From Haliea sp. E1-2-M8 (lineage in GTDB: Bacteria > Pseudomonadota > Gammaproteobacteria > Pseudomonadales > Halieaceae), in contig NZ_JAUTDR010000002.1 in the NCBI RefSeq assembly GCF_030649675.1, positions 194,254 to 258,253 on the forward strand: a stretch of 64,000 nucleotides of DNA, given 5' to 3'. The notes under the pieces were generated by a model. The model did no database searches and was not told the DNA's origin. It saw nothing but the letters and a program-made list of their open reading frames with translations. The stretch's first letter is position 1. Each line of letters starts with the position of its first letter. The translations under genes were made by a program, and so were the position numbers. Shown one piece after another: positions 12,237 through 60,007 of this stretch.

Positions 12237-14750
12237 CTAGGTCCTGCGCCCCTGTCCAGAAAAACGTATCTCCGCGAGCAGGGGGAGATGATCGGAAGCC
12301 GCCCGCGCGAGTGCCGATGCGGGAACTTCGATTCCCGTAACCTCAAGTTCGGCGCTGACAAAAATGTGATCAATGCGCACCGCGGGAAAACGGCCGGAGA
12401 ACGTACCCCGGGGCTGCCCCGGGGCCTGCGCCTGTGCATCCACCAGGCGCCCTGAAATTTGCCGACACACCGGCGATGAGGGCAGGGCATTGAAATCTCC
12501 GCAAAGAATCACCGGGCCAAGGCACTGTTCATGTGCCAGCCATTCATTGCCCAACAATGCCTGCACCTGCGCCATCCGCTCGCGAGGGTGCAAGCCCAGG
12601 TGGGTATTGATGAACTGAACCTCGACACCGTCCAGCTCCAGCGCCACCCAGAGCGCCCCGCGAGGCTCCAGCGAAGCCCTGTCGGCCAGCCCCGGCAGGG
12701 CGCCGGCCTTGATCAGGCGCTGGGGCAGATGTGTCAGAATGGCGTCCCCATAGAGCTCCTCTTCCAAGTGTAGCGCGGGATGAAAGTGAAATTCCATTTC
12801 CAGATAGCGTGCGATCAAATGTGCCTGATCCATGCCATCTGTGCGCGAACGCCCGACGTCCAGTTCCTGCAGCGCGACCACATCCGGTCTGCCGCGGGCA
12901 ATCACCCGCGCGATTCGCTCGACATCCAGTTTGCCGTCCATGCCCACACAGCTGTGTACGTTGTAGGTCATCACTCGAAGTGTATCCGTACGGGCACTGC
13001 TGCTCGGCCTGGGAACCGGGGCGGCTCCCCGCTCCGCCCGACCCAGGTAGCGCAAGGCGGCGTTGCGCAGCTCTCTGGGGCGCAGATAGTTTCTGTCGCG
13101 CTGCGGCAGCGGGGTGTCGATCGGTAGCAGCGCAAAGCCGTTGGTCTCAGCGGGCATCGCACCACCGTGGGCGCCATTCTCCGCAGCGAAGCTCACGGGC
13201 TCCAGCCCCTGACGCCAGCCCAGCAACACCAGATCTCCGGCGTCGGGATGCTGGCACATGTGCACAAGATCTTCTGCAATGGAGGGCAGAAAGGGGTGCT
13301 GCGTCCCGAACAGGGCGCCTTCGTCACCGGGCAGGCGGAAGTCTCCGGTAGCTGTGTGCGCGCGTAGCTGGCCTGGAGCTTGGACAGTGATCACGACCGG
13401 AACCCTGCAGGTCTTTGCCAGCGTATGTGCGATACGGTCGCGCTCGGCCTTGCTGACCTCGGACGGCGCATAGACATGGGCGATGGGCCCGAGCGCAGCG
13501 ACCATGGGATGAGGCTCCTCATGCTCGCCCCCATCTAGCCCCATCACGGCGAAAAGACGCTGTATCCGTGTGCCCCCAAGCAAGCGAACGCGCTGGGTCT
13601 GTTCGCCGGCCACCCCGTCGATGTGTGTTCGCAGCGGCGCGCCGCTGCTGGTTGCGAACGCGGCGGATACCGCCTCTGCCAGGGTGGAGCCCTGCAGCTC
13701 TGCATAAGGGCGCACCAGCGCCTGCCCGTGATCGGAATAAACCCAGATCTCGTACTGCCGCCACGGCGCATGAGCGGCCGCTCGCCACAACCGGGCAACC
13801 GCATCATCAATTCCTTTGAGGGTCCAGTGGGCAAACAGTGATTCGGGGCCGCGGCGGTGCGCCTGTTCATCGTAGCCGAGCAGATTCATATGAATAACCG
13901 GCAGGCCACGGCTGATATCGATCTTGCCGCCGATCACGCAAAGCTCCCGCAGGAGGATAGAAATACCCACTCTGGTGGGAATGAACTTCAGTTCCGCCAG
14001 TAAACCGTGGCCTCTGACCAGGCCCTGCCCGAAGTCACGCAGTGCCAGAGCCAGTTCCAAAAGCAACAGGACCCCGACCCGGGCAAAACTGTAGAAGTTG
14101 GCCAGTAGAAAGGCCATCATCACCAGGGGATTGGCGGCGCGCAGCGTCGACCCCCACCCCATCGAGGATGCGCAGAAGTGGGATTCCGCGGCCCCGCCCG
14201 TATAGTTGTTGGAATAGGCGCTGCCACCCCTGAGCAGTGCCTCACCGCCTTCAGCGGCCAGCCGGGCCTCGACCTGCGCGGCCACTTCGGGTTCATACAT
14301 GCGGACAATTGCGGACGAAGTCCGGTCCCGGTAGGAGAATGCCGGCACGGCAGCCGCCACGCCGTAAAAAAGTTCAGCCTGAACCGCCGGAGTTGTGGAC
14401 GGCAAACCGGAGTAATGGGCATGCACCCGATAGTGCTCGCGCCTGAGCAAGCGCCTGAGGAATGGCATTTCGCCGCGCTCCAGCGCGCGCTCAAACTGTT
14501 GCTGCGAGAGTCCGTCGATTTGAATCATGACCAGGCCCGGCCGGGTTGCCGGACCTGCGGAATCGGGCAGACGCAGCAGGCGTGCCAGCCAGACACTGCG
14601 ACTGAAACTGCGTCGAAGGCGGCGGTACAGGCTTTCCAGGCGACCTAGCACAGTGGGCAGGCCCCGACCGGTACGCGCGCGCCATGCCAGGCCAGCATCG
14701 GTGTTAGCGCTCCCCGACCGACAACATCCCGGCGTCGAGTGACGCTTCAC
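12237..14750 (-). CDS. Alkaline-phosphatase-superfamily phosphodiesterase fused to an EEP nuclease/phosphatase domain
   Basis: Two hydrolase domains in one 837-aa chain. Residues about 70-520 are type I phosphodiesterase/alkaline-phosphatase-like: metal-binding Asp79 in IQIDGL, the nucleophile region PSTTPA (Thr119/Thr120), MNLLGYDEQAH and VYSDHGQ. A hydrophobic stretch near residues 207-240 may be a membrane or lipid contact. Residues about 590-837 form an endonuclease/exonuclease/phosphatase domain with all catalytic blocks: MTYNVHS, LQELD, NTHLG, CGDFNALP, RIDHIF and SDHLPL. The EEP fold covers DNases, sphingomyelinases and inositol phosphatases, so the substrate is open. Start GTG 14750 overlaps the glycosyltransferase by 47 nt; GTG 14651 is possible. 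Last gene of a coupled five-gene unit. Confidence 0.85.
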   Translation of the reverse strand: MKRHSTPGCCRSGSANTDAGLAWRARTGRGLPTVLGRLESLYRRLRRSFSRSVWLARLLRLPDSAGPATRPGLVMIQIDGLSQQQFERALERGEMPFLRRLLRREHYRVHAHYSGLPSTTPAVQAELFYGVAAAVPAFSYRDRTSSAIVRMYEPEVAAQVEARLAAEGGEALLRGGSAYSNNYTGGAAESHFCASSMGWGSTLRAANPLVMMAFLLANFYSFARVGVLLLLELALALRDFGQGLVRGHGLLAELKFIPTRVGISILLRELCVIGGKIDISRGLPVIHMNLLGYDEQAHRRGPESLFAHWTLKGIDDAVARLWRAAAHAPWRQYEIWVYSDHGQALVRPYAELQGSTLAEAVSAAFATSSGAPLRTHIDGVAGEQTQRVRLLGGTRIQRLFAVMGLDGGEHEEPHPMVAALGPIAHVYAPSEVSKAERDRIAHTLAKTCRVPVVITVQAPGQLRAHTATGDFRLPGDEGALFGTQHPFLPSIAEDLVHMCQHPDAGDLVLLGWRQGLEPVSFAAENGAHGGAMPAETNGFALLPIDTPLPQRDRNYLRPRELRNAALRYLGRAERGAAPVPRPSSSARTDTLRVMTYNVHSCVGMDGKLDVERIARVIARGRPDVVALQELDVGRSRTDGMDQAHLIARYLEMEFHFHPALHLEEELYGDAILTHLPQRLIKAGALPGLADRASLEPRGALWVALELDGVEVQFINTHLGLHPRERMAQVQALLGNEWLAHEQCLGPVILCGDFNALPSSPVCRQISGRLVDAQAQAPGQPRGTFSGRFPAVRIDHIFVSAELEVTGIEVPASALARAASDHLPLLAEIRFSGQGRRT

Positions 14751-15990
14751 TCGCGCTGGCGAGACTCTTCAGGAGATCCCACTCCGTCTTGAGGAAATTC
14801 ACCATGTCGTCCCAGCCGCTCTCCAGCCCCGGTGTCTGTCTGCCGATATGGGTCTGGAGGCTGGCATAGCAGGTGAGTGCCCTGTCCGCCGTCCGCGGCA
14901 TGGAAAAGGTATCGGCCGTGTCCCGCGCCGCCTGCTGCAGTTCACGCAGCTTCTCTCCTCCCAACTCAGCAACCCACTGCAGCGCAGCGGCGAACTGGAT
15001 CGGCGAAGCGCCCGCCAGCAAGCGCCCGTTGCCGCCGTCCCTCACCACTTCGCGGGCGCCAGGCGCGTCCAGCGCCACCACAGGTAACCCGGCGGCCATG
15101 GCTTCGGTGAGCACCATGCCCTGAGTTTCGCTGGTGGACGCAAAGGCAAAGACGTCCATGGCATGCAGGGCGTCTGCCAGCGCCGGCTGCCCCAGAATAC
15201 CGGCGACATGCAGGTGTGCACCCAGCTGCTCCCTCTCAAAGATCGCGCGCAACTCGGCCTCGGCGGGCCCTCGTCCAACCAGCAGGAAATGCGCGTGGGG
15301 ATTGGCAGCAATAAAATTGACCAATGCCCGGGCAAGAAACTCCAGATTCTTCTCGGGTGCCAGCCGTCCCATGTGCCCAACAACGAAGGCCTCCGGGGGA
15401 ATATCGAACTGACGACGAAACCCATGCCGGTCGCCGCGGGCGAAGCGTTCCGGGAATACCCCGGTGGGTACGACCGTGACCGGGCGGGTGACGCCCCGCT
15501 GCTGTATCAGAGTCCGAATGCTGTCGCTGGGGGCAAACACATGATCGCACAGGTTAGCGTAGCGCGTTGCCAGCTCAATGGCAAAGCGTCGCATGGCGGG
15601 CGAGTCGCCGCGCAGGTAGTGGGTGTATTGTTCGTAGAGCGTATGGTGAGTGAATACAATCGGCAGGCGCCGGTGTCGCGCCAGACGCAGGGCGGTAAAC
15701 CCGAGCAGGAACGGGTGCTGGGAGTGCACGATGTCGGGCTGGAACGCATCGATGTCCAGGCCGAGACCTGCCTGCATCGGCAGAGCCACCGAGAAATCAC
15801 TGTCGTTGAAGTGCTGGATCGCAGGGACCCGCAGCACATCGGTTTCAGTCTGCGGCCTGTCGGGATATTCTGGCGCCAGGATCAACACCTGGTGCCCGCG
15901 CTTGCGATACTCCGCGCTGAAGGCTTCCACCGAACGCGCCACGCCGCCGACATGGGGGGTAAAGGTGTTGGTGACCAGGAGGATGTTCAC
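14704..15990 (-). CDS. GT4-family glycosyltransferase
   Basis: Retaining GT-B glycosyltransferase of family GT4. The N-terminal Rossmann domain opens NILLVTNTFTPHVGGVARSVEAF with the GG loop, followed by PDIVHSQHPFLLG. The C-terminal donor domain has VVGHMGRLAPEKNLEFLARAL, LLVGRGP, and the E-x7-E motif in STSETQGMVLTEAMAAGLPVV. The arrangement resembles the transferases that glycosylate membrane lipids (for example SqdX or PimB-like), but the acceptor is not determinable. The last 40 residues are an acidic helical tail. GTG 15990 overlaps the upstream stop as GTGA. Probably membrane-associated in the cytoplasm. Confidence 0.9.
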   Translation of the reverse strand: MNILLVTNTFTPHVGGVARSVEAFSAEYRKRGHQVLILAPEYPDRPQTETDVLRVPAIQHFNDSDFSVALPMQAGLGLDIDAFQPDIVHSQHPFLLGFTALRLARHRRLPIVFTHHTLYEQYTHYLRGDSPAMRRFAIELATRYANLCDHVFAPSDSIRTLIQQRGVTRPVTVVPTGVFPERFARGDRHGFRRQFDIPPEAFVVGHMGRLAPEKNLEFLARALVNFIAANPHAHFLLVGRGPAEAELRAIFEREQLGAHLHVAGILGQPALADALHAMDVFAFASTSETQGMVLTEAMAAGLPVVALDAPGAREVVRDGGNGRLLAGASPIQFAAALQWVAELGGEKLRELQQAARDTADTFSMPRTADRALTCYASLQTHIGRQTPGLESGWDDMVNFLKTEWDLLKSLASASEASLDAGMLSVGER

Positions 15991-18242
15991 GCATCTGCCC
16001 CCGGTTCCCGGGCGAGCACGACTTCAGTGGTGCCGTCCACCGCCTGCTGGGGCTGACAACCCGGCAGACGCACTTCGATCGGCGGTGCGCCCCGGTGCCA
16101 GTGCGCCTGCCAGGAGACACACGGTGCACCATCGCCGCTCGGCATGATGGTTATGGAGAGGCGACCAAAGGCCGTCGGGGCGGGGCCAAACCGTATTGGC
16201 GCCTCCTGCGCCAGCCAGCGCTGCGGAACCCCCGCACAGAGGATGAGGCCTGAGCCTTCCTCGCGGACAAAGCAGTTGCGGATCATAAGCAACCATTCCG
16301 CGGCTGCCCAGACGTGGTGGCCATCTCCCATGCAGCCACCTCCGGTGCGGGGATGGATAGCCTCCGGCCATTGGCCCGTGGTCGAGGCCAGGGCCGCTAC
16401 CGTGTCCATAAGGTCGAGATAACGGGGATCTCCGGCGCGCAGCAGGATCTGGGCAACGTGCAGGGTCAGGTAGGCGTTGAGGCCGGAATGGATCATGTCC
16501 TGATAGAAGGCGCCGGCAACGAAACAGTGGTCGAGCAGGAACTCGACGCAATCGAGCAGGCGCGGGTCCCGTGCCGCGCAGAGTTGGGTCGGATAACCGA
16601 ACGCCACAGAACCGATGGCGCCGGCATCCAGGCGGCGGTGAGGAGACGCGGGCATGGCAGGGCGGCCCAGTCGTTGCGCGCATTGCGCCAGACTCCGCTC
16701 CACCGCGCGCGCAAAATCATCGGCGCCCTGCGCAAACTTCTTGCTGTGGGCGGGATCGTCATTCTTGAGCAAAGCCGCAGCAGAGCGCAGACCCGCCACA
16801 CCCCAGAAGTCATCCCAGTAATAGTAGTCGTTCGGCCCCAGATGCTCCGCGCTGAAGCCGGCGGGCAGCAGCCCGGCGTGCGGAGCGTCGAGATCATCCG
16901 CCAGGCGCTTGCGCAGGATCCAGTCGGCACCACGGATTACGGGCCGTACCCAGTCCGGCGACAGGGTGCGCCCGGTCATGCTGTGGAAGCGCTCAACGAT
17001 CCACAGCACCTGGCCATTGGAGTCCCACTCACCATCCTGGGAACGGAAGTAACCCTGGGCAGTCTGCCGCTGCGGAAATTGCCACAGCGCCCGCTCGGCG
17101 CGACCAGTCAAGCCGGCACACAGAAGAGCATGGATCATGAAGGCGGCATCGCGAAACCAGAACCGCTTGTAGGTAAACGGCCCGGGGTAGACATCTTTCG
17201 GCGAATGCAAAATCAGAGACATGATCGCCGCATCGTAGAGAAACTGGTAGTGCGGGTCTGGACAGCTGAACTTGCAGCGATCCTCGTGCCCCGAGCGCCA
17301 GGCATCCGCGGCGAGCGGCCTGGAGCCGCTGGCGGGCAGGGTTATTGTCGCCGTGATTGCCGTTTCTTCGCCGGCCTTTACCGGAAACAGCGCTGCCGCG
17401 GTTATCATACCCACATCGCAGCGCCCCTCGCTCTGATCATCCAGATCATCCAGATGTATGTAAACGTCCCCGGCGCGGTAATTGGATACATGGTGACGGC
17501 TGGCGGCCGCGCTGAATTCGACCCTGTGGTCCTCGTCGACAATCCAGGCGCTGCGATCGCTGGTCAGCCTGACCTCGTGCACGAAGCTGATGCCCTCCGG
17601 ATTGTAGGGGCGCAGCGCCAGTACCAGCCAGGCGTCGCTGTCGCTGCGCGCCTGCGCTTGCAGCTCGCATACCGCCGACCCCGATTCAAGCCGTACCCAG
17701 GCCCGGTTACGGAGGCTGCCACCGGACATGGCAGTTTCGGTAACGACGCAGACACCATTCTGCATCTCCTGGGTCTGGCGGGCATCGAGACTGCGCGACG
17801 GTAACAGACAGCGGCCATCCGCAGTCTGCAGCCAGCAGTCCAGGGACCAGCCGTCATAGAGGGGGGTCAGCAGGCCGCGTGGATCCACGATCGGCAGTTC
17901 AGCGCAATCCGGATAACCAATCGCGGTCCAGTTCCTGTGCGTGAGGTTGATGTGGGTAATGGAAAATGCGCGCGGAATGAACGACACATCACGCGGGTCA
18001 AACTGGCGCTCAATCCAGTAGGGCCAGACCCAGTCCAGGTTGTGCTGGATCACGCGGCTGTTGATCAGGCCGCGGGCGTGGAATACCACACCGGCCCGCA
18101 GCAATTCGATCGGTTCGGCCACCTCGGATGGCTGCGCAAAGCCGTGCAACTTTGCCAGCAATGCTACGGGATCCAGAAACCCCGTACTGCGCGCCACCCG
18201 CCGTACTATATAGCGCCAGGGCAACCACCGCAGCCAGGTCAC
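15987..18242 (-). CDS. Six-hairpin glycosidase-like protein (GH15/debranching-type)
   Basis: Large (751 aa) protein with an N-terminal beta-rich region (about residues 60-330) and a C-terminal alpha/alpha-barrel resembling glucoamylase or glycogen-debranching hydrolases. The barrel is seen from YQFLYDAAIMSLILHSPKDVYPGPFTYKRFWFRDAAFMIHAL onward. KRFWFRDAAFM is the usual FW.RD-type substrate-site motif, followed by DGEWDSNGQVLWIVERF and YYYWDDFWGVAG. No signal peptide is obvious, but the start MTWLRWLPWRYIVRR is amphipathic and could bind membrane. GTG 18242 overlaps the stop of the VTT gene as GTGA; the frame is open further upstream but only inside that gene. Activity is inferred by fold, with no substrate evidence. 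Confidence 0.8.
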   Translation of the reverse strand: MTWLRWLPWRYIVRRVARSTGFLDPVALLAKLHGFAQPSEVAEPIELLRAGVVFHARGLINSRVIQHNLDWVWPYWIERQFDPRDVSFIPRAFSITHINLTHRNWTAIGYPDCAELPIVDPRGLLTPLYDGWSLDCWLQTADGRCLLPSRSLDARQTQEMQNGVCVVTETAMSGGSLRNRAWVRLESGSAVCELQAQARSDSDAWLVLALRPYNPEGISFVHEVRLTSDRSAWIVDEDHRVEFSAAASRHHVSNYRAGDVYIHLDDLDDQSEGRCDVGMITAAALFPVKAGEETAITATITLPASGSRPLAADAWRSGHEDRCKFSCPDPHYQFLYDAAIMSLILHSPKDVYPGPFTYKRFWFRDAAFMIHALLCAGLTGRAERALWQFPQRQTAQGYFRSQDGEWDSNGQVLWIVERFHSMTGRTLSPDWVRPVIRGADWILRKRLADDLDAPHAGLLPAGFSAEHLGPNDYYYWDDFWGVAGLRSAAALLKNDDPAHSKKFAQGADDFARAVERSLAQCAQRLGRPAMPASPHRRLDAGAIGSVAFGYPTQLCAARDPRLLDCVEFLLDHCFVAGAFYQDMIHSGLNAYLTLHVAQILLRAGDPRYLDLMDTVAALASTTGQWPEAIHPRTGGGCMGDGHHVWAAAEWLLMIRNCFVREEGSGLILCAGVPQRWLAQEAPIRFGPAPTAFGRLSITIMPSGDGAPCVSWQAHWHRGAPPIEVRLPGCQPQQAVDGTTEVVLAREPGADA

Positions 18243-18973
18243 GGCAGATCCTCCGCAATGACTCCCGCGTCCTCGTAGCGATACAGGGCGCGGCGCGCCA
18301 GCCGGGTAACCCATACCACAGCAATCGCGGTGGCGATGAAACCGCCGGCGTACAGAGTCCATTCCAGCGGTGAGCGGCCAACGTTGCGCACGCCCAGGGT
18401 TGTGACATCGGCCGCGATCGAACCCAGATATACGCTGTGCAGGGAGAACGGAATGAAACCCAGCAACGAGCCCACAGTATATCCACGCAGGGGCACCGAG
18501 GTCAGCCCGAAAAAATAGTTGGATACCTTGCTGGGGAAAAACGGGATCAACCGTGTCAACAGGACAATCTTCCAGCCATCGTGAGTCAGTTCCTCACTCA
18601 GCATATGCAAACGCGCCCGGGCCGTGATAAACCGCCGGGCGCGAGCCCCGAACAGGTAGCGAGCAACCAGAAAAGCCAGTATTGCACCAAGTGTGGTTCC
18701 CACCACAACGTACAGGGTACCCTTTGCGACCCCAAACACGAATCCGGCGCCAGTGGTCAACAGCACCCCGGGGAGGAGCAGCACAACCGCCGTCGCCATC
18801 AGCAGAATGAACCAGACGGCAGCCCAGGCGCCCTGTGACTCGAACCACAGCAGCAGGCTGGCGATCTGCTTGTGGATGTCAAAATAGACCAGGAGGGCGA
18901 GCACCCCGGCGACGAACGTGATACTCGCCGCCATTCCCCAAAGTGGTGAGCGCTCGCTTCCCTTTTTACCCAT
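18239..18973 (-). CDS. TVP38/TMEM64-family membrane protein (VTT/DedA-like)
   Basis: Integral membrane protein with a VTT (SNARE-associated) domain. DedA and VTT relatives include undecaprenyl-phosphate translocases and phospholipid scramblases, though TVP38 members are mostly uncharacterised. Motifs are LLLPGVLLTTGAGFVFGVAKGTLYVVVGTTLGAILAFL-type glycine-rich re-entrant segment (residues about 68-100), the R-x-IPF-P-x-K stretch LLTRLIPFFPSKVSNYFFGLT, and SLLGFIPFSLHSVYLGS. Six hydrophobic segments. ATG 18973 begins 3 nt after the stop of the cytochrome gene, indicating one transcript. Confidence 0.9.
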   Translation of the reverse strand: MGKKGSERSPLWGMAASITFVAGVLALLVYFDIHKQIASLLLWFESQGAWAAVWFILLMATAVVLLLPGVLLTTGAGFVFGVAKGTLYVVVGTTLGAILAFLVARYLFGARARRFITARARLHMLSEELTHDGWKIVLLTRLIPFFPSKVSNYFFGLTSVPLRGYTVGSLLGFIPFSLHSVYLGSIAADVTTLGVRNVGRSPLEWTLYAGGFIATAIAVVWVTRLARRALYRYEDAGVIAEDLP

Positions 18974-18976
18974 GAG

Positions 18977-21346
18977 TTATGTCTGGCATCCTTTACTCAG
19001 ACTGTTCAGCCACTCCCGTACCAGCTCCACTGCCTCATCGTGGATAATGCTGCGCCCGATCTCGGGCATGCGCACATCCGGGTCGTTGGAATCCATGCGG
19101 AACACGGTGATGGAGGCGTCCGCATCGCCGGGCACAAAGTCAAACTGCAGCCCCCCCGAACCGGCGCCGGCGGCTACCGGCGGCTTGCAGATACCGTAGG
19201 TGGAATCCACCTCGCGCCAGAACTCCAGGAACATGCCCGAGTTGCTGGCGAAGCCGCCGGGGCTATGACAGTGCGCACAGTTGATATCCAGGTAGGCCTT
19301 GGTACGCTCCTGCAGCGGCTGCGCGAGGTCCTCCCAGTCCGGCGCCCTGTCGACGACCGCGAGATTCCTGGGCAGGCCAGCCAGGCCCCCCAGCTGGGCC
19401 ATGTAGGTCAGCTGGTTATGGCTCTTGCCTGCATAGCTGTTGTCGCGATTCAGGAACCGCGCCTTGGGCCCGATCGGCAGGTTCACCGTTTCCTGGTTGA
19501 CGCCGCTGCCGGTCTCGGCGCGGGTGACGCCATGGCAGGTCTTGCAGCTATTGGCGTCGGGGATAACATACTCGGTACTGCGGGTCATGCCGTCGCTGTG
19601 GATCCACTGCAGGGTTCGACGGCCGCCGGCGACGGTCAGATCCGCGCCGCTGCTATCTTCGCGCCAGATGTAGGGCAGCGTCGCCCAGCCCTGACGACGG
19701 TGGATCAACAGGCGGGTCTCGATGATGATCTCACCCGCTCCCGGATTGAGGAAATCGTTGGGCATGGTGAAAGTCTTGGCGATGATCGTTCCCACCGGGA
19801 AGTCGAATACATCGCGCGTAGCATAGGCTGCCTGCAGCCCTTCGGGGAGAAAGATAAAGCGGTATTTCTCCGCGTAGTCGGTAAACAGCTCGCTGGTCAG
19901 GTCGTACAGGATACCGCCGTTGGCGTCACCGCGCGGATCCAGCGCATCCGCAAACAGGTTGTATCCCGCCAGTTCGCGACAGCTAACCTCCACGGCGCCG
20001 AAATTGGCCTCGTTAGCGGCGGGGGTGCAGAGCTCGGCGATCTCGGCTTCGGTCGGTGGCCGCTCGCCCTCGGCAATCGCCTCGGGTGTATCCAGCACAA
20101 CCTCTGCCAGAGAGGCGTGGGCACAGGCGAAGAAGGCGGGATCTGCACTGGCGCCGCCGCCACCGGGCTGGAACAGCACGCCCCGCCGCACGGCTTCGGC
20201 CTCCGCTATACAGATGCGATCGGGATCTGCGAAGGCGCCCTGCCCTTCCCCCAGGCCGTCGTAGACGATCTCCGGCAGGCCACCGTGTCCGGTGAACAGG
20301 CCGGCGATATCGGCGACCAGGCCCTGCGGGTCAGTTGCGTTGTCGCTGTATTGGTTGTCGTGCACATGGATGCGCCGCGGGTCGGGGTCGTAGTTGGCAT
20401 CCTCGGTGGTCAGCCCACTGATCGCGTAACTGACGATGGCGATAGCCAGCGACTGATTGCCTTCGATACGGTTGCCGAACACCTCGATATCATCGAAGGC
20501 CATGGCAAGAATACCGGTGCCGGCAGGCACGATAGCGACGATATTCCCCTCCGGCGCGAAGTTGGGGGTGTTGTTGTTGCGAATGGTGTTGTCGTAGATT
20601 CGCGCGCGCTCTCCGTCCAGCGCCAGGTTGGGCAGGTCGAACACCAGAATGCCGCCGGTGTTGTTCTCGGCGATGTTCTCGTAGACATCCGAGTTGGTGG
20701 AGTTTTCGATTTCGATGCCCGCGACATTCAGGGATACCCGGTTGCGGCGCACGATGATCTTGTCCGACTGGCCCACATAAATACCGGCGTCACTGGCGCC
20801 GATGACCACGCTGTCCTCGATCAATACGTTCCGGGTCTGCACCGGGTACAGGCCGTAGGCACCGTTGCTGGCACAGGGGCCACAGGTCCACTCCACCCGC
20901 AGCGACTTCATGGTGACGCCGTTGGAAAACTTGAACTTGACGCCATCGGCGGGCGGATCAATGAGCGCAAATTTCTCCAGCACCACGTTGTTGCTGGTAA
21001 CCAGAATGCTCTCACCGCCTGACACCTGTGCCGCGAAATTGAGCACGGTCTGCTCGGGCCCCTGTCCACGCACAGTGACGTTGTCGACATCCAGGGAGAG
21101 GGCGCCATCCAGTTCAAACTCGCCCGCGGGAAGCTCGATGGTCTGCCCGGGCTCGGCGTTGATGAACGCCTCAAGCAAGCGCCTCTGGAAGTCTTCTCCG
21201 GGCTCCACTACCACCAGGTTGGGATCCACCTCCTCCGGCTGCACCGGCGGCGGCTCCGGCGTCGCCTGTCGGTCGCTGCTTTCGGAGCAGGCCAGAAGCC
21301 CAAGCGCCAGCAGGAGAGCAAGCAAGCCTTTAACTGGATAGCCCAT
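18977..21346 (-). CDS. Parallel beta-helix lipoprotein fused to SO2930-type diheme cytochrome c
   Basis: Envelope lipoprotein (789 aa; lipobox LGLLAC). Residues about 45-420 are a parallel right-handed beta-helix: repeated short strands such as VTMKSLRVEW, NVLIEDSVVIGASDAGIYVG, KIIVRRNRVSLNVAGIEIEN and SDVYENIAENNTGGILVF. Residues about 500-789 match the SO2930/HNE_0200-type domain with two c-type heme sites, CKTCH at 601-605 and CAHCH at 690-694. In other bacteria these two parts are commonly neighbouring genes; here they are one reading frame. Start ATG 21346 has AAGGG 8 nt upstream; ATG 21352 is the alternative. First gene of the coupled minus-strand unit. A redox or polysaccharide-binding role is inference. 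Confidence 0.85.
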   Translation of the reverse strand: MGYPVKGLLALLLALGLLACSESSDRQATPEPPPVQPEEVDPNLVVVEPGEDFQRRLLEAFINAEPGQTIELPAGEFELDGALSLDVDNVTVRGQGPEQTVLNFAAQVSGGESILVTSNNVVLEKFALIDPPADGVKFKFSNGVTMKSLRVEWTCGPCASNGAYGLYPVQTRNVLIEDSVVIGASDAGIYVGQSDKIIVRRNRVSLNVAGIEIENSTNSDVYENIAENNTGGILVFDLPNLALDGERARIYDNTIRNNNTPNFAPEGNIVAIVPAGTGILAMAFDDIEVFGNRIEGNQSLAIAIVSYAISGLTTEDANYDPDPRRIHVHDNQYSDNATDPQGLVADIAGLFTGHGGLPEIVYDGLGEGQGAFADPDRICIAEAEAVRRGVLFQPGGGGASADPAFFACAHASLAEVVLDTPEAIAEGERPPTEAEIAELCTPAANEANFGAVEVSCRELAGYNLFADALDPRGDANGGILYDLTSELFTDYAEKYRFIFLPEGLQAAYATRDVFDFPVGTIIAKTFTMPNDFLNPGAGEIIIETRLLIHRRQGWATLPYIWREDSSGADLTVAGGRRTLQWIHSDGMTRSTEYVIPDANSCKTCHGVTRAETGSGVNQETVNLPIGPKARFLNRDNSYAGKSHNQLTYMAQLGGLAGLPRNLAVVDRAPDWEDLAQPLQERTKAYLDINCAHCHSPGGFASNSGMFLEFWREVDSTYGICKPPVAAGAGSGGLQFDFVPGDADASITVFRMDSNDPDVRMPEIGRSIIHDEAVELVREWLNSLSKGCQT

Positions 21347-21469: not shown

Positions 21470-22447
21470 ATGCCCTGCTCCACAACCCTGCCCTGCAGCC
21501 GCTTCTTGCCCGCCCTGCTGCTCATGCTCACACTCACCGCTTGCGGCCGGCAGGAGGCGCCAACCCGGCCCGCTGCGGAGGCCGCTGCGGATGCACCGCG
21601 CATTGCCCTGGTGATGAAGTCGTTGGCCAACGAGTTTTTCACCAGCATGGCAGACGGCGCACGGGCCCACCAGGCCGCCAACCCGGGCCAGTACGAGCTG
21701 ATTGTCAACGGCATCCGCAATGAAAGCGACCTGGCGCAGCAGGTGGCGCTGGTCGAGCAGATGATGGCCACCGGGGTAGACGCCATCGTGATAGCGCCGG
21801 CAGACTCCAGGGGCCTGCTGCCGGTTGCCCGCCGTGCCGTTGCCCAGGGCATTGTGGTGGTCAATATCGACAACCGCTTTGACCGGGATGTCCTCGCCGA
21901 AATGGGAGTGGAGATTCCGTTTGTGGGGCCGGACAACCGCGAGGGCGCGCGCAAGGTGGGCGAGGTACTGGCGGCAGAGCTTGCATCCGGCGACCAGGTC
22001 GCCATCATCGGCGGCATTCCCGGGGCATTCAACGCCCAGCAGCGTCAGGCCGGATTCGAAGATGCCATGCGCAGCGCTGACATCGAGGTGGTTTCCATTC
22101 AGGCAGCGGACTGGGAGCAGGCGCGCGCGGCGACAGTTGCCAGCGCCATTCTCGGCGAACACCCCGGGCTCAGGGCCCTGCTCTGCGCCAACGACAGCAT
22201 GGCACTGGGAGCCGTCGCCGCCGTGCGCCAGGCCGGTCGCGCCGACGAGGTACTGGTGGTTGGCTTCGACAACATCTCTGCCGCAAACACCCTGGTGCAG
22301 TCTGGCGCCATGCTTGCCACTGCCGACCAGTACGGCGACCAGCTGGCAGTCTTTGGCATTGAGTATGCGCTGGAAATTCTGGCAACCGGCCAGGCCCCGC
22401 AGGACCGCAACACTGCGGTCGACGTTGTCGTCGCCAGCGCCCGCTAG
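21470..22447 (+). CDS. Sugar ABC transporter substrate-binding lipoprotein (RbsB-like)
   Basis: Periplasmic binding protein of the ribose/galactose class (peripla_BP_4). The lipobox LTLTAC near residue 25 makes it a lipoprotein, whereas E. coli RbsB is soluble. The binding core begins PRIALVMKSLANEFFTSMADGARAHQ, then VDAIVIAPADSRGLLPVARRA, VVNIDNRFD, PFVGPDN and LRALLCANDSMALGAVAAV, all typical positions. AGGAAG precedes ATG 21470. First gene of a four-gene unit. The sugar is unknown: no kinase, isomerase or regulator gene lies nearby. Confidence 0.93.
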   Translation: MPCSTTLPCSRFLPALLLMLTLTACGRQEAPTRPAAEAAADAPRIALVMKSLANEFFTSMADGARAHQAANPGQYELIVNGIRNESDLAQQVALVEQMMATGVDAIVIAPADSRGLLPVARRAVAQGIVVVNIDNRFDRDVLAEMGVEIPFVGPDNREGARKVGEVLAAELASGDQVAIIGGIPGAFNAQQRQAGFEDAMRSADIEVVSIQAADWEQARAATVASAILGEHPGLRALLCANDSMALGAVAAVRQAGRADEVLVVGFDNISAANTLVQSGAMLATADQYGDQLAVFGIEYALEILATGQAPQDRNTAVDVVVASAR

Positions 22448-22457
22448 CGAGCCAGTG

Positions 22458-24044
22458 GTGAGCGCAGACACCAGCCCCCTGCTGCAGACAAGGGGACTGG
22501 ACAAGCAGTTCGCGGCACCGGTACTCCGGGGCGTCGACTTCAGTCTGCATCGAGGCGAGATCCATGCGCTGATGGGCAGCAACGGTGCCGGCAAGAGCAC
22601 CCTGTGCAATATCATCGCCGGAATTCACCAACCTTCCAGCGGCAGTCTGCTGCTGGAGGGGAGCCCCTACCGTCCCGCCTCAATCCGCGACGCCGAGGCC
22701 GCCGGCGTGCGCATGGTGATGCAGGAATTGAACCTGTTCCCCAATCTGAGCATTGCCGAAAACCTGTGTTTCAACCAGCTCGGCAACCGGTTTGGCTGCA
22801 TCAGCCGGAGAACGCTGAAAACCAATGCCCGCACCGCCCTGGCACGGCTCAAACTCGACGATCTGGACCCCGACCTGCCGGTCTCGGCGCTCGGGGTCGG
22901 CAAACAGCAGTTGGTGGAAATTGCCCGGGTGCTGGCGCAGCCAGTCAAGCTGCTGATCCTCGACGAGCCCACCGCCGCCCTCACTGACCCCCAGATCGAC
23001 CAGCTGTTCCTGCAGCTGGACGCCCTGCGTCACTCCGGCGTCGGCATCGTTTACATCTCCCATCGCATGAGTGAAATCCAGCGGGTTGCGGACCGGGTCT
23101 CGGTACTGCGGGACGGAGTGCTGGTGGCTACCGAAACTGCCAGCAACATGCACGTTGACCGCCTGGTTCACCTGATGGCGGGTCCGGCCATGATGCAGAT
23201 ACCGGCGTCCGGCGCCGCACCCGCACCCGCAAACCAGCGCGCCCCGGAGCCCGCTGGGGAGGTGGCCCTGCGCGTGGAGGGCTTCGGACGGGAGCGCGCC
23301 TTTAGCGATATCAGCCTGGAGGTACACCGCGGCGAGGTGCTGGGCATCGGCGGCCTGATCGGCGCCGGACGCACCGAACTGCTGCGCGCCCTGTTCGGCG
23401 CCGATGTGGCGGACTGCGGCTGGCTGCACCTGGCCGCCGATGGGTTCAGCCGCAGACACCGGTTCAAGACCCCCGCGGAGGCCATTGCGGCAGGTATCGG
23501 CCTCGTGGTGGAGGATCGCAAGGCACAGGGACTGCTGCTGGACAAATCCATCGCCATGAATATCAGCCTGGGCAGGTTGCCGCAGTTGCACAATCGCCTG
23601 GGCGTGGTCGATGACGAGGCCATAACCCGCCACAGTGAGCTGCTCTGTGACCAACTCGAAGTCAAGCGCGACAGTATCGCCCAGGCGGTCAGGCAGCTTA
23701 GCGGCGGCAACCAGCAGAAGGTGCTGATCGCGCGCTGGCTGCTGCAGGATCTGGACGTAGTGCTGTTCGACGAGCCCGGCAGAGGGGTGGATGCACGCTC
23801 GAAACTGCGCATCCAGCAGCTGATCCGGGAGCTGGCCGCACGCGGCAAGGCAATAGTGGTAGTAAGCAGTGAGACCGAGGAACTGCTGGCCCTGTCAGAC
23901 CGGGTGCTTGTGCTGTCCAACGGCCGCCTGGCAGGGGAGTTTGACGCCCGGACGGTTACCGAAGAGACCCTGCTGGCCGCCAGCTTCCGCCACTATGCCC
24001 AGCCCGGGCAGAACCCCGCCCCCGGCACGGAGACCGGCACATGA
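22458..24044 (+). CDS. Sugar ABC transporter ATP-binding protein (RbsA-like, duplicated)
   Basis: Two ABC ATPase modules in one chain (528 aa). Module 1 has Walker A GSNGAGKST, VSALGVGKQQLVEIARVLA as signature region and Walker B LLILDEPTAALT. Module 2 has the degenerate Walker A GLIGAGRTE that is normal for RbsA/XylG proteins, signature RQLSGGNQQKVLIARWL and Walker B VVLFDEPGRGVD. Energises uptake together with the permease at 24041. Start GTG 22458 (or GTG 22455) lies 10 nt after the rbsB-like stop. A Pro/Ala-rich linker (SGAAPAPANQRAPEPAGE) joins the halves. Confidence 0.93.
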   Translation: MSADTSPLLQTRGLDKQFAAPVLRGVDFSLHRGEIHALMGSNGAGKSTLCNIIAGIHQPSSGSLLLEGSPYRPASIRDAEAAGVRMVMQELNLFPNLSIAENLCFNQLGNRFGCISRRTLKTNARTALARLKLDDLDPDLPVSALGVGKQQLVEIARVLAQPVKLLILDEPTAALTDPQIDQLFLQLDALRHSGVGIVYISHRMSEIQRVADRVSVLRDGVLVATETASNMHVDRLVHLMAGPAMMQIPASGAAPAPANQRAPEPAGEVALRVEGFGRERAFSDISLEVHRGEVLGIGGLIGAGRTELLRALFGADVADCGWLHLAADGFSRRHRFKTPAEAIAAGIGLVVEDRKAQGLLLDKSIAMNISLGRLPQLHNRLGVVDDEAITRHSELLCDQLEVKRDSIAQAVRQLSGGNQQKVLIARWLLQDLDVVLFDEPGRGVDARSKLRIQQLIRELAARGKAIVVVSSETEELLALSDRVLVLSNGRLAGEFDARTVTEETLLAASFRHYAQPGQNPAPGTETGT

Positions 24045-25036
24045 GTCGCAGTATCCTGGCGGGTATTCGCCTGCCCTGGAATTCCCTCGGGCTGGTCGCG
24101 GTACTGGTACTGTTGGTGCTGTTTTTCAGCAACCAGAGTGAGTACTTCTTTTCCGCGGTAACCTTCCGCACCCTGGCCAACCAGATCCCGACCCTCACCG
24201 TAATCGCGGTGGGCATGACCTATGTGCTGCTGATCGCCGGCATCGACCTGTCCGTGGGCTCGGTCATGGCGCTGTGCGCCGCGGTCATGGGAGTGCTGAT
24301 GGCCGATGCCGGCTGGCCACTGCTGCCGGCCATTGCCGCCAGCCTGCTCACCGGGCTGGCCTGCGGCAGTGCCAGCGGCCTGGTCAGCGCGCGCTGGGCC
24401 ATCCCCTCCTTCGTGGTCACCCTGGGCATGCTGGAAATCGCCCGCGGTGGCGCCTACCTGGTGACCGACTCCCAGACCCGGTATCTGGGCGCCAGCGTCG
24501 GGCGGATTGGCGAGCCGCTGGCGGGGCTGGGGGTGTCGCCAGCGCTGCTGGCCGCGCTGGCGGTCGTCGCCGTGGCCCAGTTTGTGCTGGTGCGCACGGT
24601 GTTCGGACGTTACATGGTTGCCATCGGCAGCAACGAGGAGGCGGCCCGTCTCTCGGGCCTCAATACCGTGCGCTGGAAAGCGCTGGTATTTGCGCTGGCC
24701 GGACTACTGGCAGCCCTGGGCGGGGTGTTCCAACTGGGTTACCTGCAGACCGCGGACCCCAACGCGGGCATCGGCCTGGAGCTGTCCGCCATTGCCGCGG
24801 TGGTCATCGGTGGCACCAGTCTGTCGGGCGGAAGGGGCTCGGTGGTCAACACCTTTCTCGGAGTCCTGATCATCGCCGTAATGCAGACCGGGTTGGCGCA
24901 ACTGGGCATCTCCGAGCCCGGCAAGCGCATTATTACCGGCGTGGTGATAGTAGCGGCGGTGCTGTTTGACCAGTATCGTGAGCCCCTCGCCCGCCGTTTC
25001 TCCCGGTGGCGACTATCGTCAGGAGCAAGGGAATGA
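24041..25036 (+). CDS. Sugar ABC transporter permease (RbsC-like)
   Basis: Inner-membrane permease of the BPD_transp_2 class, 331 aa with about 9-10 hydrophobic helices. Landmarks are GMTYVLLIAGIDLSVGSVMAL, WAIPSFVVTLGMLEIARGGAYLVT, GRYMVAIGSNEEAARLSGLN (the ATPase-contacting loop) and IAAVVIGGTSLSGGRGSVVNTFLGVLI. ATG 24041 overlaps the ATPase stop (ATGA), and its own stop overlaps the antiporter start, so the four genes are translationally coupled. Confidence 0.93.
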   Translation: MSRSILAGIRLPWNSLGLVAVLVLLVLFFSNQSEYFFSAVTFRTLANQIPTLTVIAVGMTYVLLIAGIDLSVGSVMALCAAVMGVLMADAGWPLLPAIAASLLTGLACGSASGLVSARWAIPSFVVTLGMLEIARGGAYLVTDSQTRYLGASVGRIGEPLAGLGVSPALLAALAVVAVAQFVLVRTVFGRYMVAIGSNEEAARLSGLNTVRWKALVFALAGLLAALGGVFQLGYLQTADPNAGIGLELSAIAAVVIGGTSLSGGRGSVVNTFLGVLIIAVMQTGLAQLGISEPGKRIITGVVIVAAVLFDQYREPLARRFSRWRLSSGARE

Positions 25037-25998
25037 TCGCAGTGGCGGCCGTTATCGTCGGCCTGGTAATTCTGGTGTGGAGCGCGGATCGGTTTGTAAC
25101 GGGAGCGGCAGCGACCGCCTGGCACTTTCAGGTTCCACCGCTGTTGATCGGCATGGTGATCATCGGGTTTGGTACCTCGGCACCGGAAATGGTGGTTTCG
25201 GCCATGGCCGCCTCCCAGGGCAACCCCGGCCTGGCGCTGGGGAATGCCTACGGGTCGAATATCACCAATATTGCGCTGATTCTGGGCATCACCGCCCTGA
25301 TCAGCCCACTGCTGGTGCACTCGCAGATTCTGCGCAAGGAACTACCGATCCTGCTGGCGGTTACCGCCCTGGCGGCCTGGCAGCTGGTGGACGGCACCGT
25401 CTCCCGGCTGGAAGCGTTCGTGCTGCTCGGGGTATTCGCAGCATTGATCACCTGGACCATCCGCGAGGGCATGAGCGGCAAGGCCGACCAGCTCGGCACT
25501 GAAGTAAGCGAGGACCTGGACGCCGTCGCCCACATGCCGCTGCGCCGCGCCCTGCTGTGGCTGGCGGTGGGGCTGATCGCCCTGATTGCCGCCTCGCGGC
25601 TGCTGGTCTGGGGCGCCATCGACATTGCGGTGGGCCTCGGGATCAGCGACCTGGTTATCGGCCTGACCGTTGTCGCCATCGGCACCTCGCTGCCGGAGCT
25701 GGCCTCCTCGGTCATCGCCGCGCGCAAGGGCGAAAACGACATCGCCCTCGGCAATATCATCGGCTCCAACCTGTTCAACACACTGGCGGTTGTGGGCATC
25801 GCCGGCGGCATCAATGCGATCACCGTGCCCCCGGAAGTTCTCACCCGGGACGTGGCCGTGATGGCGGGACTAGCGGCGCTGTTATGCGTGCTGGGCTACC
25901 GCCGCAATGGACCGGGACGCATCAACCGCCTGGAGGGCGGGGTGCTGCTGCTCTGCTTCGGCGCCTACACCGCCTGGCTGTTAACGACCAGCCTCTGA
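25033..25998 (+). CDS. CaCA-family calcium/sodium antiporter (YrbG-like)
   Basis: Inner-membrane cation:cation antiporter, 321 aa with ten hydrophobic helices in two inverted halves. Both alpha repeats are present: VIIGFGTSAPEMVVSAMAA with GNAYGSNITNIALILG, and VVAIGTSLPELASSVIAA with GNIIGSNLFNTLAVVG. The acidic residue in each GTSxPE is the ion ligand. The loop between them is acidic (EVSEDLDAVAH). ATG 25033 overlaps the permease stop as ATGA and has AGGAGCAAGG upstream. Such tight coupling with a sugar importer is unusual. Its 3' end overlaps the convergent GGDEF-EAL gene by 18 nt. Confidence 0.93.
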   Translation: MIAVAAVIVGLVILVWSADRFVTGAAATAWHFQVPPLLIGMVIIGFGTSAPEMVVSAMAASQGNPGLALGNAYGSNITNIALILGITALISPLLVHSQILRKELPILLAVTALAAWQLVDGTVSRLEAFVLLGVFAALITWTIREGMSGKADQLGTEVSEDLDAVAHMPLRRALLWLAVGLIALIAASRLLVWGAIDIAVGLGISDLVIGLTVVAIGTSLPELASSVIAARKGENDIALGNIIGSNLFNTLAVVGIAGGINAITVPPEVLTRDVAVMAGLAALLCVLGYRRNGPGRINRLEGGVLLLCFGAYTAWLLTTSL

Positions 25999-55701: not shown

Positions 55702-56249
55702 ACCTGTTCCGGCCTGATATGAGCCATATAGGGCGTATCCAGCACCGCCATGCCATCCTCTGTGCCATAGGTCACATCAATACCATCGCTACGCCAGACA
55801 AAATAGAGGAATGATGCCGGCGGGCCAGCCCAATCCTGCGTGTCATCAGTGATCAGATCGGTAATCAGTTGGTCCAGCGCGGGCGCAGGCAATTCCGCGG
55901 GGCGCTTGCCGTAACGCTCAATAGAATGCCGTGCAAGCGCCATCAGGCCACTGCGATAGAAATTCACATGGGGTTCTGCCACACCCAGATACCGAAGCAT
56001 CAGAAGACTATCCGCCGAGGGCCGCGCCAATTGGTAATCTATAAAATGCACCGCGCCAGCCCCGGCGGAACCGGGCACCAATGCTTCTATAACAGTCTCA
56101 AGGTCTGCAGCTTCTTCGGCATCCAGCACACTGAGTGGCAGCTTGCGCTGTCGCGCCTCTGCTGGTGACAGCAGCAGCGCCCCCGATACCAGCGGATACG
56201 CGAGTAGCAGTGCCTTGAGAAACCTGCGCCGCTGCTGTAACGGCTCCAT
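55695..56249 (-). CDS. Gluconate 2-dehydrogenase subunit 3 family protein
   Basis: Small partner subunit of membrane GMC dehydrogenases, 184 aa. The leader QQRRRFLKALLLAYPLVSGALLLSPAEA has a twin-arginine-like RRRFLK motif and a hydrophobic core. The body (LDAEEAADLETVIEALVPGSAGAGAVHFIDYQL) is typical of the family. GAGGG precedes ATG 56249, 5 nt after the TonB receptor stop. A cytochrome c subunit, usual third partner, is not encoded here. Confidence 0.9.
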   Translation of the reverse strand: MEPLQQRRRFLKALLLAYPLVSGALLLSPAEARQRKLPLSVLDAEEAADLETVIEALVPGSAGAGAVHFIDYQLARPSADSLLMLRYLGVAEPHVNFYRSGLMALARHSIERYGKRPAELPAPALDQLITDLITDDTQDWAGPPASFLYFVWRSDGIDVTYGTEDGMAVLDTPYMAHIRPEQVW

Positions 56250-56254
56250 CACCC

Positions 56255-58693: not shown

Positions 58694-58713
58694 ACGCGGC
58701 CTCTTTCAAGTTA

Positions 58714-58731
58714 AACTTTAGACTTAAAGTG
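58714..58731. promoter_or_regulatory. Operator-like inverted repeat between the TonB receptor and MaoC genes
   Basis: ACTTTA-GACT-TAAAGT at 58715-58730, an exact 6-bp inverted repeat. Its core TTTAGACTTAAA matches the reverse complement of the element before the cyclase gene in 11 of 12 bases. It lies in the divergent promoter region and could control both directions. Confidence 0.6.
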
Positions 58732-58821
58732 TTTTCGATAATAGGTTCAATCGACGACGTTGTAAATACCCTGATTACAGAAGATTCAACAGTCCGATTA
58801 TTGCCAAGTGGGAGACAGCAG

Positions 58822-59256
58822 ATGTGGCGTTTCAATAGTTTCGAGGCCGGGCAATTAATCCAGCTGGGGAAATATCAGCTGACAGCAGAGGATATAATCG
58901 AGTTTGCGACCCGCTACGACCCACAGCCGATGCATACCGATCCAGTGGCTGCGGCACACTCACCAATGGGCGAATTGATAGCGAGCGGCTGGCACACCTG
59001 TGCCATTGCAATGCGGCTGTTGTGTGACGCTTTCATCTCGGATTCGAGCTCGGTAGCAGCTCCTGGAGTGGATAGTATTCGCTGGCTAGCACCCGTTCGA
59101 CCGGGGGACATATTGAGTGGGCAGTGCAGGATCCTGGAAACGCGTCTCAGTCAAAGCAAGCCGGATCGGGGCGTAGTAACCGCAGAAGTGTCCTTGCAAC
59201 GCCAGGACGCTGTAGAGGTATTGCGCATGAAGACTACCGCGCTCTACCTGGTGTAG
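58822..59256 (+). CDS. MaoC-family dehydratase (R-hydratase-like)
   Basis: Single-hotdog enoyl-CoA hydratase of the MaoC family, 144 aa. The catalytic motif is YDPQPMHTDPVAA, with the expected Asp-x4-His pair, followed by GELIASGWHTCAIAMRLL. SIRWLAPVRPGDILSGQC completes the hydratase pattern. ATG 58822 has GGGAGA 8 nt upstream; the frame is open further upstream across the operator, so the longer reading is rejected. Divergent from the TonB receptor operon and likely part of the same catabolic set. Confidence 0.9.
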   Translation: MWRFNSFEAGQLIQLGKYQLTAEDIIEFATRYDPQPMHTDPVAAAHSPMGELIASGWHTCAIAMRLLCDAFISDSSSVAAPGVDSIRWLAPVRPGDILSGQCRILETRLSQSKPDRGVVTAEVSLQRQDAVEVLRMKTTALYLV

Positions 59257-59371
59257 ACCATCAGACCCGGGGCTGACCTCTGAGCGAGGCCCCTGGCAGG
59301 GTGCGTGCCACAGCCGCCGAACAGGCAGCATGAACCCCGCGCTTCCTGCGAATCCGCTCAGAACGCACAGC

Positions 59372-60007
59372 TCACTCAGGCTGGTCGCTGCGGTGGGTGG
59401 CCGCGATACGCGCCGCCTGCTCATAGATCCCCGACATCAGATCAAGAGTACGAGCCGAATCGGTTAATTGCGGCACGAACTCGTGGACAGTGCCGGTGAA
59501 ATCAAGCAGCAGGTTGCGCCGAAGATCAGCATATCGCTCGGTGATCTCGAAACCCTTGGCGGTGACCCGGTAGGTAACCCCCTGTCGGTGTGAACTTTGC
59601 TTGCTCTTCTCGACCAGGCCCGCCTTGAGGAGCTTGCGTAGAGAATACTGGATGTTGGGAATGTCATCGCGATTCATCAATCGGGCAATCTCCTTGACAC
59701 CCTTGGCTCGCTCCTTCATCCGGATCACGTGCAGAAGTGCGTTGTCGCTGCCACCCACATCTATACCACTAACCGCAGCGAGGCACTCGGCCTGCCAGCG
59801 GACAAACGCCTCGTTACAGCGGATGATGGCGTACTCAAGCTCGCTGACTGCGATCTCGTGGGGCGTCTCGGCAAGATGCCAGCGCCGGTCCAGAGCGAGC
59901 CCGCCGTTCTCGTCATTGCCTACCTTGGCAATACCGGGCGCGGTGGACTCTTTCTCCTTCGACATTTTTGGCAAGCCCGGGGAGCCGGGCTTTTTGCTTC
60001 TTGGCAT
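59372..60007 (-). CDS. MarR-family winged-helix transcriptional regulator
   Basis: 211-aa regulator. A Lys/Ser/Pro-rich N-terminal tail of about 45 residues precedes an alpha-helical dimerisation region and a winged helix at about residues 105-170 (VKEIARLMNRDDIPNIQYSLRKLLKAGLVEKSKQSSHRQGVTYRVTAKG), in which the wing is followed by a long C-terminal helix. ATG 60007 behind AAGGAGGG; an upstream frame to 60118 is unsupported. Divergent from the LLM monooxygenase gene, the common arrangement for a local regulator. Confidence 0.85.
   Translation of the reverse strand: MPRSKKPGSPGLPKMSKEKESTAPGIAKVGNDENGGLALDRRWHLAETPHEIAVSELEYAIIRCNEAFVRWQAECLAAVSGIDVGGSDNALLHVIRMKERAKGVKEIARLMNRDDIPNIQYSLRKLLKAGLVEKSKQSSHRQGVTYRVTAKGFEITERYADLRRNLLLDFTGTVHEFVPQLTDSARTLDLMSGIYEQAARIAATHRSDQPE

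Follow-up and report, generated by a model that had tools for sequence, protein, structure and literature searches.

Do the five closely packed genes at positions 12,237 to 21,346 of a 64,000-nucleotide stretch of the Haliea sp. E1-2-M8 genome (contig NZ_JAUTDR010000002.1, positions 194,254 to 258,253; this whole stretch is called the window below) form one functional system, and what could such a system do? In the order of transcription they encode a cytochrome lipoprotein (gene 1), a VTT-domain membrane protein (gene 2), a glycosidase-like (GH-like) protein (gene 3), a GT4 glycosyltransferase (gene 4) and a fusion of two phosphohydrolase domains (gene 5, ALP::EEP). An earlier interpretation made from the letters alone (the sequence-only reading) had joined all five in a single unit and named conservation of the gene order across several genera as its test. 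Our comparison with relatives divides this unit: genes 2-5 are a recurring cassette, patchily distributed in distantly related bacteria, whose order is conserved in several genera, whereas gene 1, behind which the cassette lies at a 3-nt gap, is an incidental neighbour and does not share this conservation.

When species-level genomes were scanned with the GH-like protein, 353 stretches encoding its relatives were retrieved, the best 80 of which were analysed as loci; those with enough flanking DNA are referred to as testable. The full order VTT-GH-GT4-ALP-EEP is present in 34 of the 80 loci. The VTT gene lies at most 1.1 kb upstream of the GH-like gene in 71 of the 77 testable loci and the GT4 gene downstream of it in 47 of 75, and where GT4 is present and the downstream sequence spans 5 kb or more, ALP is found in 39 of 44 cases and ALP together with EEP in 36 of 44. 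The 4-nt overlaps of the window recur as well, between VTT and GH in 50 of 72 testable loci and between GH and GT4 in 31 of 50, so the junction pattern is more than chance. Besides the four core genes, no family occurs in more than 24 of the 81 clustered regions (the 80 loci and the window). The full-order loci are gammaproteobacterial or belong to Thiobacillus/Hydrogenophilales, except for five desulfobacterial bins (L027, L076, L082, L089, and L099) and a 'Halobacteria' bin (L090). Since many of the genomes scanned are bins that possibly include foreign contigs (the 'Halobacteria' bin groups with a gammaproteobacterial one), we rest nothing on single bins and refer instead to the isolates with the full order, namely Rheinheimera, Arsukibacterium, Thiobacillus denitrificans, and Bowmanella. 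Partial or rearranged cassettes were found in Nitrospinota and Riflebacteria bins; in L094 ALP::EEP precedes VTT, and the divergent VTT gene of L031 (19% identity) stands between GH and GT4. GT4 is missing from 28 loci, namely those of Marinobacter, Marinimicrobium, Saccharospirillum, an Oleiphilaceae bin, and a 'Halomonas' bin that groups with Marinobacter. Over 36 loci, the five domains show correlated pairwise distances (r 0.88-0.96), and for every pair the correlation exceeds those of all 500 label permutations.

The same association is seen in gene content. In a sample of 274 genomes drawn evenly from the class, with the window genome included, presence was called at no less than 790 bits for GH (next match 78), 512 for GT4 (next 300) and 1004 for ALP::EEP; these thresholds were set after the gaps had been seen, and at most 3 to 6 candidates were scored per genome, so that a copy could be missed. 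GH was found in 12 genomes, which span 11 family labels, GT4 in 17 and ALP::EEP in 8. GT4 is present in all 12 GH genomes and in all 8 ALP::EEP genomes, six of the latter having GH too (hypergeometric p of 2e-17 for GH-GT4, 3e-11 for ALP::EEP-GT4 and 4e-8 for ALP::EEP-GH, all overstated because shared ancestry is ignored). The cassette is not rigid. Five of 13 GH-bearing genomes checked have a GT4 locus without ALP: three of these lack any ALP::EEP match elsewhere, one (G391) has a match elsewhere over 660 of 805 positions, and one (G394) matches the EEP half only. The linkage of genes 2-5 claimed by the sequence-only reading has thus held, and its 'unit' has to be loosened, as VTT-GH, GH-GT4 and GT4-ALP::EEP also occur as sub-modules.

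Gene 1 behaves differently. No match to it adjoins the cassette in any of the 80 loci, 69 of which extend at least 3.5 kb upstream of the GH-like gene; the sole match (30% identity, L073) lies about 8 kb from the GH-like gene, on its far side. Of 115 genomes examined from the order, 34 have gene 1 relatives and 5 have GH, both being present only in the window genome and in G288, where they are on different contigs; of 61 examined from the family, 16 have gene 1 and 6 have VTT. All three congeners sampled possess gene 1 (78-79% identity) and none of them has a VTT match at E 1e-30; the 16-kb stretches around their gene 1 gave no match to VTT, GH, GT4, ALP or EEP, the search for GH being confined to these stretches. 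G310 has VTT-GH-GT4 and no gene 1, and G403 carries gene 1 and the cassette on different contigs. As neither gene order nor gene content in relatives links gene 1 to genes 2-5, we consider it a neighbour of the cassette and not its member. The 3-nt gap to the VTT gene speaks for one functional unit of all five genes, and in the window genome gene 1 and the cassette are likely to be co-transcribed; still, the congeners with the lipoprotein and no VTT match, together with G310 and G403, contradict the idea of such a unit, which we reject as extremely improbable, and a functional link of gene 1 to the cassette is not supported.

What the cassette proteins may do has to be judged from each of them. 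In ALP::EEP, the type I phosphodiesterase-like domain (residues ~70-545) contains a hydrophobic stretch (209-241) and is followed by the EEP domain (~590-832). The identity of the ALP half is predicted from PF01663 and from a profile match to the NPP structures 7mw8/2gsn (E 2e-4 to 3e-4). Its residues D79, T120, D294, H298, D340, H341, and H528 are invariant in 25 sequences, and we take them to be the metal-binding residues and the nucleophile of a type I phosphodiesterase/NPP of the alkaline phosphatase superfamily; N597, E629, H717, D752, N754, D794, D820, and H821 of the EEP domain, equally invariant in the 25 sequences, presumably represent the active-site set N, E, H, D-x-N, D, D-H. The model of the fusion is of moderate quality (pLDDT 72.2, pTM 0.63). 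Its EEP fold matches 4ruw (Z 28.8, 237 residues aligned, rmsd 2.3), and among its structural relatives are EEP proteins of unknown function and the neutral sphingomyelinase 8j2f (Z 24.4). Four loci encode EEP in a gene of its own, which precedes VTT in L026, L068, and L074 and lies downstream on the other strand in L214; no EEP follows the ALP gene of these loci. Three of the four separate EEPs were scanned, and all three exceed the PGAP2IP cut-off of 27 bits (43.3, 38.3, and 27.9).

Both GT4 domains, PF13439 and PF00534, were found in gene 4, and both glutamates of E288-x7-E296, presumably the E-x7-E motif of GT4 enzymes, are invariant in an alignment of 23 sequences. The nearest NCBIfam model is NF049988, alpha-monoglucosyldiacylglycerol synthase, itself a GT4 enzyme, which covers residues 1-378 at 130 bits, far under its equivalog cut-off of 400. 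In two genomes of one family (L132 and L133) the GT4 is fused to DUF374, which we take to be a lipid-acyltransferase-like domain related to lysophospholipid acyltransferases. A further group of GT4 proteins was noticed alongside. On another contig of the window genome (L187:4684-8113) and in L186:2138-5412, a protein of 739-764 aa combines a GT4 domain related to that of the cassette with a transmembrane stretch; its N-terminus reads by eye like a calcineurin-type phosphoesterase that has lost the metal motifs (Pfam finds the GT4 half only), and its gene adjoins an LPG_synthase_TM (PF03706) gene. In seven genomes with VTT-GH and without the cassette GT4, the GT4 relatives have the score and open-frame length of the L187/L186 proteins; the loci read were L187 and L186.

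The GH-like protein of the window has no Pfam or NCBIfam match at E 0.05, PF00723 appearing in only 4 of 40 relatives (best E 0.019), and PDB sequence searches gave nothing useful. According to its AlphaFold2 model (mean pLDDT 79.6, pTM 0.85), it is a beta-sandwich followed by an (alpha/alpha)6 barrel of the GH15/GH65 kind, which bears out the earlier guess of a six-hairpin glycosidase. The model matches the GH65 alpha-1,2-glucosidase 7fe3 (Z 25.5, 524 aligned, rmsd 5.2), the GH15 glucoamylase 1lf6 (Z 24.2, 517 aligned, rmsd 3.3) and also human PGGHG and 2-O-alpha-glucosylglycerol phosphorylase (4ktr, Z 20.7); matches within one Z unit were treated as tied and no single family was picked. The architecture is thus common to GH15 glucoamylases and to GH65 glucosidases and phosphorylases (Z ~20 to 25.5), yet identity is 8-15% with no family-level sequence match, and the GH-like protein has an extra conserved N-terminal region. 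The first ~100 residues (18242-17940) are strongly conserved, tryptophan-rich and modelled with low confidence; this region may bind the membrane or a partner. D477 (WDDFWG) and E627 (WPEAIHP) are invariant in the 40 relatives, and W362-x-R364-D365 aligns with the WSRD segment of 1lf6 in a weak profile alignment (E 0.71). Judging by GH15 motifs, D477 and E627 would be the catalytic acid and base, although the other invariant acids, E405 and E466, might fill these roles instead. No N-terminal hydrophobic segment was detected in GH, GT4 or ALP::EEP, and GH and ALP::EEP appear to be cytoplasmic. Distant barrel relatives (27-32% identity) are encoded in L016, L017, L018, L019, and L020; that of L018 has F5/8-type C matches together with weak GDE_C ones. 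A plasmid search with GH retrieved two similar, distant Methylosinus/Methylocystis proteins annotated as 'discoidin domain-containing' (24-26% identity).

The VTT protein has hydrophobic segments and matches PF09335 at E 6.5e-25, a domain that it shares with the DedA/VTT transporters UptA (undecaprenyl phosphate) and PetA (phosphatidylethanolamine), and is a putative lipid flippase or scramblase. The UptA equivalog of NCBIfam, whose cut-off is 250 bits, scores it at only 19.7, and a profile search of PDB returned nothing useful. On another contig of the window genome (L001), a second VTT protein shares its reading frame with a pyridine nucleotide-disulphide oxidoreductase.

Taking these properties together, we propose that genes 2-5 constitute a modular envelope-lipid cassette acting on the cytoplasmic side of the inner membrane, where a glycolipid is made, trimmed and moved; we put the probability of this reading at about 45%. 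ALP::EEP, which has no N-terminal signal and a single hydrophobic stretch, would strip a membrane lipid of its phosphate-bearing head group in two steps, with ALP acting as a phosphodiesterase and EEP as a phosphomonoesterase or a second phosphodiesterase, and would leave diacylglycerol or a similar acceptor. GT4 would add an alpha-linked sugar to this acceptor, the GH-like enzyme, with its fold of inverting alpha-glucosidases, could remove the sugar again in glycolipid turnover or editing, and the VTT protein could equilibrate the lipid between the leaflets. The (alpha/alpha)6 fold is common to inverting alpha-glycosidases, and retaining GT4 enzymes produce alpha-glycosides, so the chemistry is coherent. 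The patterns of fusion and fission connect ALP with EEP, and GT4 with lipid chemistry; they also indicate that VTT-GH and GT4-ALP::EEP can work apart. The earlier proposal that a glycolipid or lipid-linked glycan is synthesised, flipped and trimmed stays the best class of explanation, in view of the GT4-DUF374 fusions and of EEP lying beside ALP or fused to it, but it is only partly supported. More tentatively, and with considerable doubt, one may think of a reversible machine for phospholipid/glycolipid exchange that sets leaflet composition, in which a phosphodiesterase::phosphatase tandem would work with an alpha-glycosyltransferase for lipids, with cytosolic, glycolipid-cleaving (alpha/alpha)6 glycosidases of a new family and with a VTT scramblase dedicated to the task; VTT-GH alone, as in Marinobacter, would then be a glycolipid-turnover device served by another glycosyltransferase.

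Several observations weigh against the envelope-lipid reading. Since nucleases and the mannosyl-6-phosphatase 4c1r (Z 25.9) are also among the closest EEP structures, a lipid substrate cannot be deduced from the fold, and the fold search was made with the whole ALP::EEP model, not with ALP folded alone, so that its list was filled by the EEP domain and ALP was barely probed. Identity to the EEP of the window is only 35-37% for the separate EEPs, which are maybe not its counterparts, compared with 55-78% for the fused EEPs of the 80 loci. Seven of the 13 GH-bearing genomes mentioned above have VTT-GH without ALP::EEP and without the cassette GT4 (only relatives of 266-287 bits), hence GH does not everywhere depend on the product of that GT4. 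GT4-ALP::EEP stands without GH or VTT in L131, and L136-L139 have GH-GT4 alone, with no tblastn match to the VTT, ALP or EEP of the window within 14-19 kb, a search that a divergent VTT could escape. The distance correlation has neither an unlinked-gene control nor a control for shared species history. Finally, the PHO box, taken as the E. coli consensus only, is not enriched in 73 upstream regions, of which 71 belong to the loci and two to the window: the best score averages 9.16, compared with 8.87 for shuffles.

Three other explanations deserve consideration. The cassette could serve a polyprenyl-linked glycan, with VTT recycling undecaprenyl phosphate like UptA, GT4 extending the saccharide, GH trimming it, and ALP::EEP releasing or recycling the carrier phosphate. 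GT4 enzymes often work on lipid-linked glycans, which suits this scheme; the UptA score given above, the apparently cytoplasmic GH and ALP::EEP, and the 81 regions, in which no fixed glycan-assembly partner recurs (neighbours were not annotated singly), make it unlikely all the same, even though characterised DedA proteins flip undecaprenyl phosphate (PMC12893004). A cycle of a soluble alpha-glucoside, either a compatible solute or a storage compound, in which GT4 would make a (phospho)glucoside, EEP dephosphorylate it and GH hydrolyse it, would agree with the fold relatives of GH (the glucosylglycerol phosphorylase and the GH65/GH15 enzymes) and of EEP (mannosyl-6-phosphatase). VTT would merely co-travel in such a cycle, and yet it is the most constant neighbour of GH; given also the GT4-DUF374 fusion and the hydrophobic stretch of ALP::EEP, we regard this cycle as rather improbable.

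The remaining possibility is lipid substitution under phosphate starvation, the cassette being an independent counterpart to PlcP-Agt in which ALP::EEP takes the part of PlcP and the cassette GT4 that of Agt. The ALP and EEP domains are unlike the PlcP family, which is calcineurin-like, and the absence of PHO-box enrichment weakens this explanation further, so its chances seem poor to us. In its favour, the remodelling of lipids under phosphorus deficiency involves PlcP together with a glycosyltransferase (PMC4796936), and an agt mutant of phosphate-limited Desulfovibrio was without glycolipids (PMC5193443). The PlcP-Agt pair of Agrobacterium, SAR11, Phaeobacter, and Desulfovibrio is similar to the cassette in pairing a phosphohydrolase with a lipid glycosyltransferase; the cassette differs from it in the ALP and EEP hydrolase domains, the extra GH and VTT, and the lack of a detected PHO box.

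As to the locus itself, the five open reading frames, all on the minus strand, and their four junctions are as the sequence-only reading had described them (Table 1): after the 3-nt gap between gene 1 and VTT come GTGA overlaps at VTT/GH and GH/GT4 and a 47-nt overlap at GT4/ALP::EEP. Its domain calls proved correct too, with matches to TIGR03805/TIGR03806, PF09335, PF13439/PF00534, and PF01663 with PF03372. An alternative ATG of the GH-like frame at 18362 would give a longer protein. A consensus scan for promoters inside the five-gene stretch showed no clear excess, with four sites on both strands against 2.2 in shuffles (standard deviation 1.4), three of the four being on the coding strand.

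Table 1. Genes of the five-gene stretch (positions in the window).
Gene	Positions	Strand	Remarks
Gene 1, beta-helix + diheme cytochrome lipoprotein	21346-18977	minus	789 aa; in-frame ATG also at 21352
Gene 2, VTT-domain membrane protein	18973-18239	minus	244 aa; PF09335
Gene 3, GH-like protein	18242-15987	minus	751 aa from overlapping GTG; predicted fold GH15/GH65-type
Gene 4, GT4 glycosyltransferase	15990-14704	minus	428 aa; PF13439/PF00534
Gene 5, ALP::EEP fusion	14750-12237	minus	837 aa; PF01663 + PF03372

In gene 1, TIGR03805 (beta-helix, 392.6 bits, cut-off 141.5) is fused to TIGR03806 (diheme cytochrome, 363.2 bits, cut-off 313.3); the protein has two CxxCH motifs at residues 601 and 690 and a lipobox-like LLAC at the N-terminus. 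Passing both cut-offs, it resembles the SO2930/HNE_0200-type proteins; it stands outside the cassette. Divergently from it, on the plus strand, a sugar-type ABC transporter (Peripla_BP_4, ABC_tran, BPD_transp_2) is encoded at 21470-25036. In the three congeners, DNA matching 25018-25985 of the window lies within ~1 kb of the cytochrome gene, so the transporter is absent from that site there too; in one of them (L208), the convergent gene after gene 1 reads by eye like bacterioferritin. Elsewhere in the window, G+C falls to 0.556 at 56001-60000, compared with 0.608-0.648 in the remaining 4-kb blocks.

We found no paper on the whole VTT/GH/GT4/ALP::EEP set, most subscription journals lying outside the search, so that its absence from print is unproven; a search of the polar-lipid literature also gave nothing bearing on the cassette. 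DedA/VTT proteins are widespread in bacteria and, to our knowledge, most of them lack known substrates. A VTT protein found in recurring order with a glycosidase, a lipid-type glycosyltransferase and a phosphohydrolase offers a direct handle on the substrate of its subgroup. The GH-like protein has escaped Pfam and NCBIfam, yet 353 stretches encode its relatives in one scan, and cultured strains of Rheinheimera, Arsukibacterium, Thiobacillus denitrificans, and Marinobacter carry the cassette genes.

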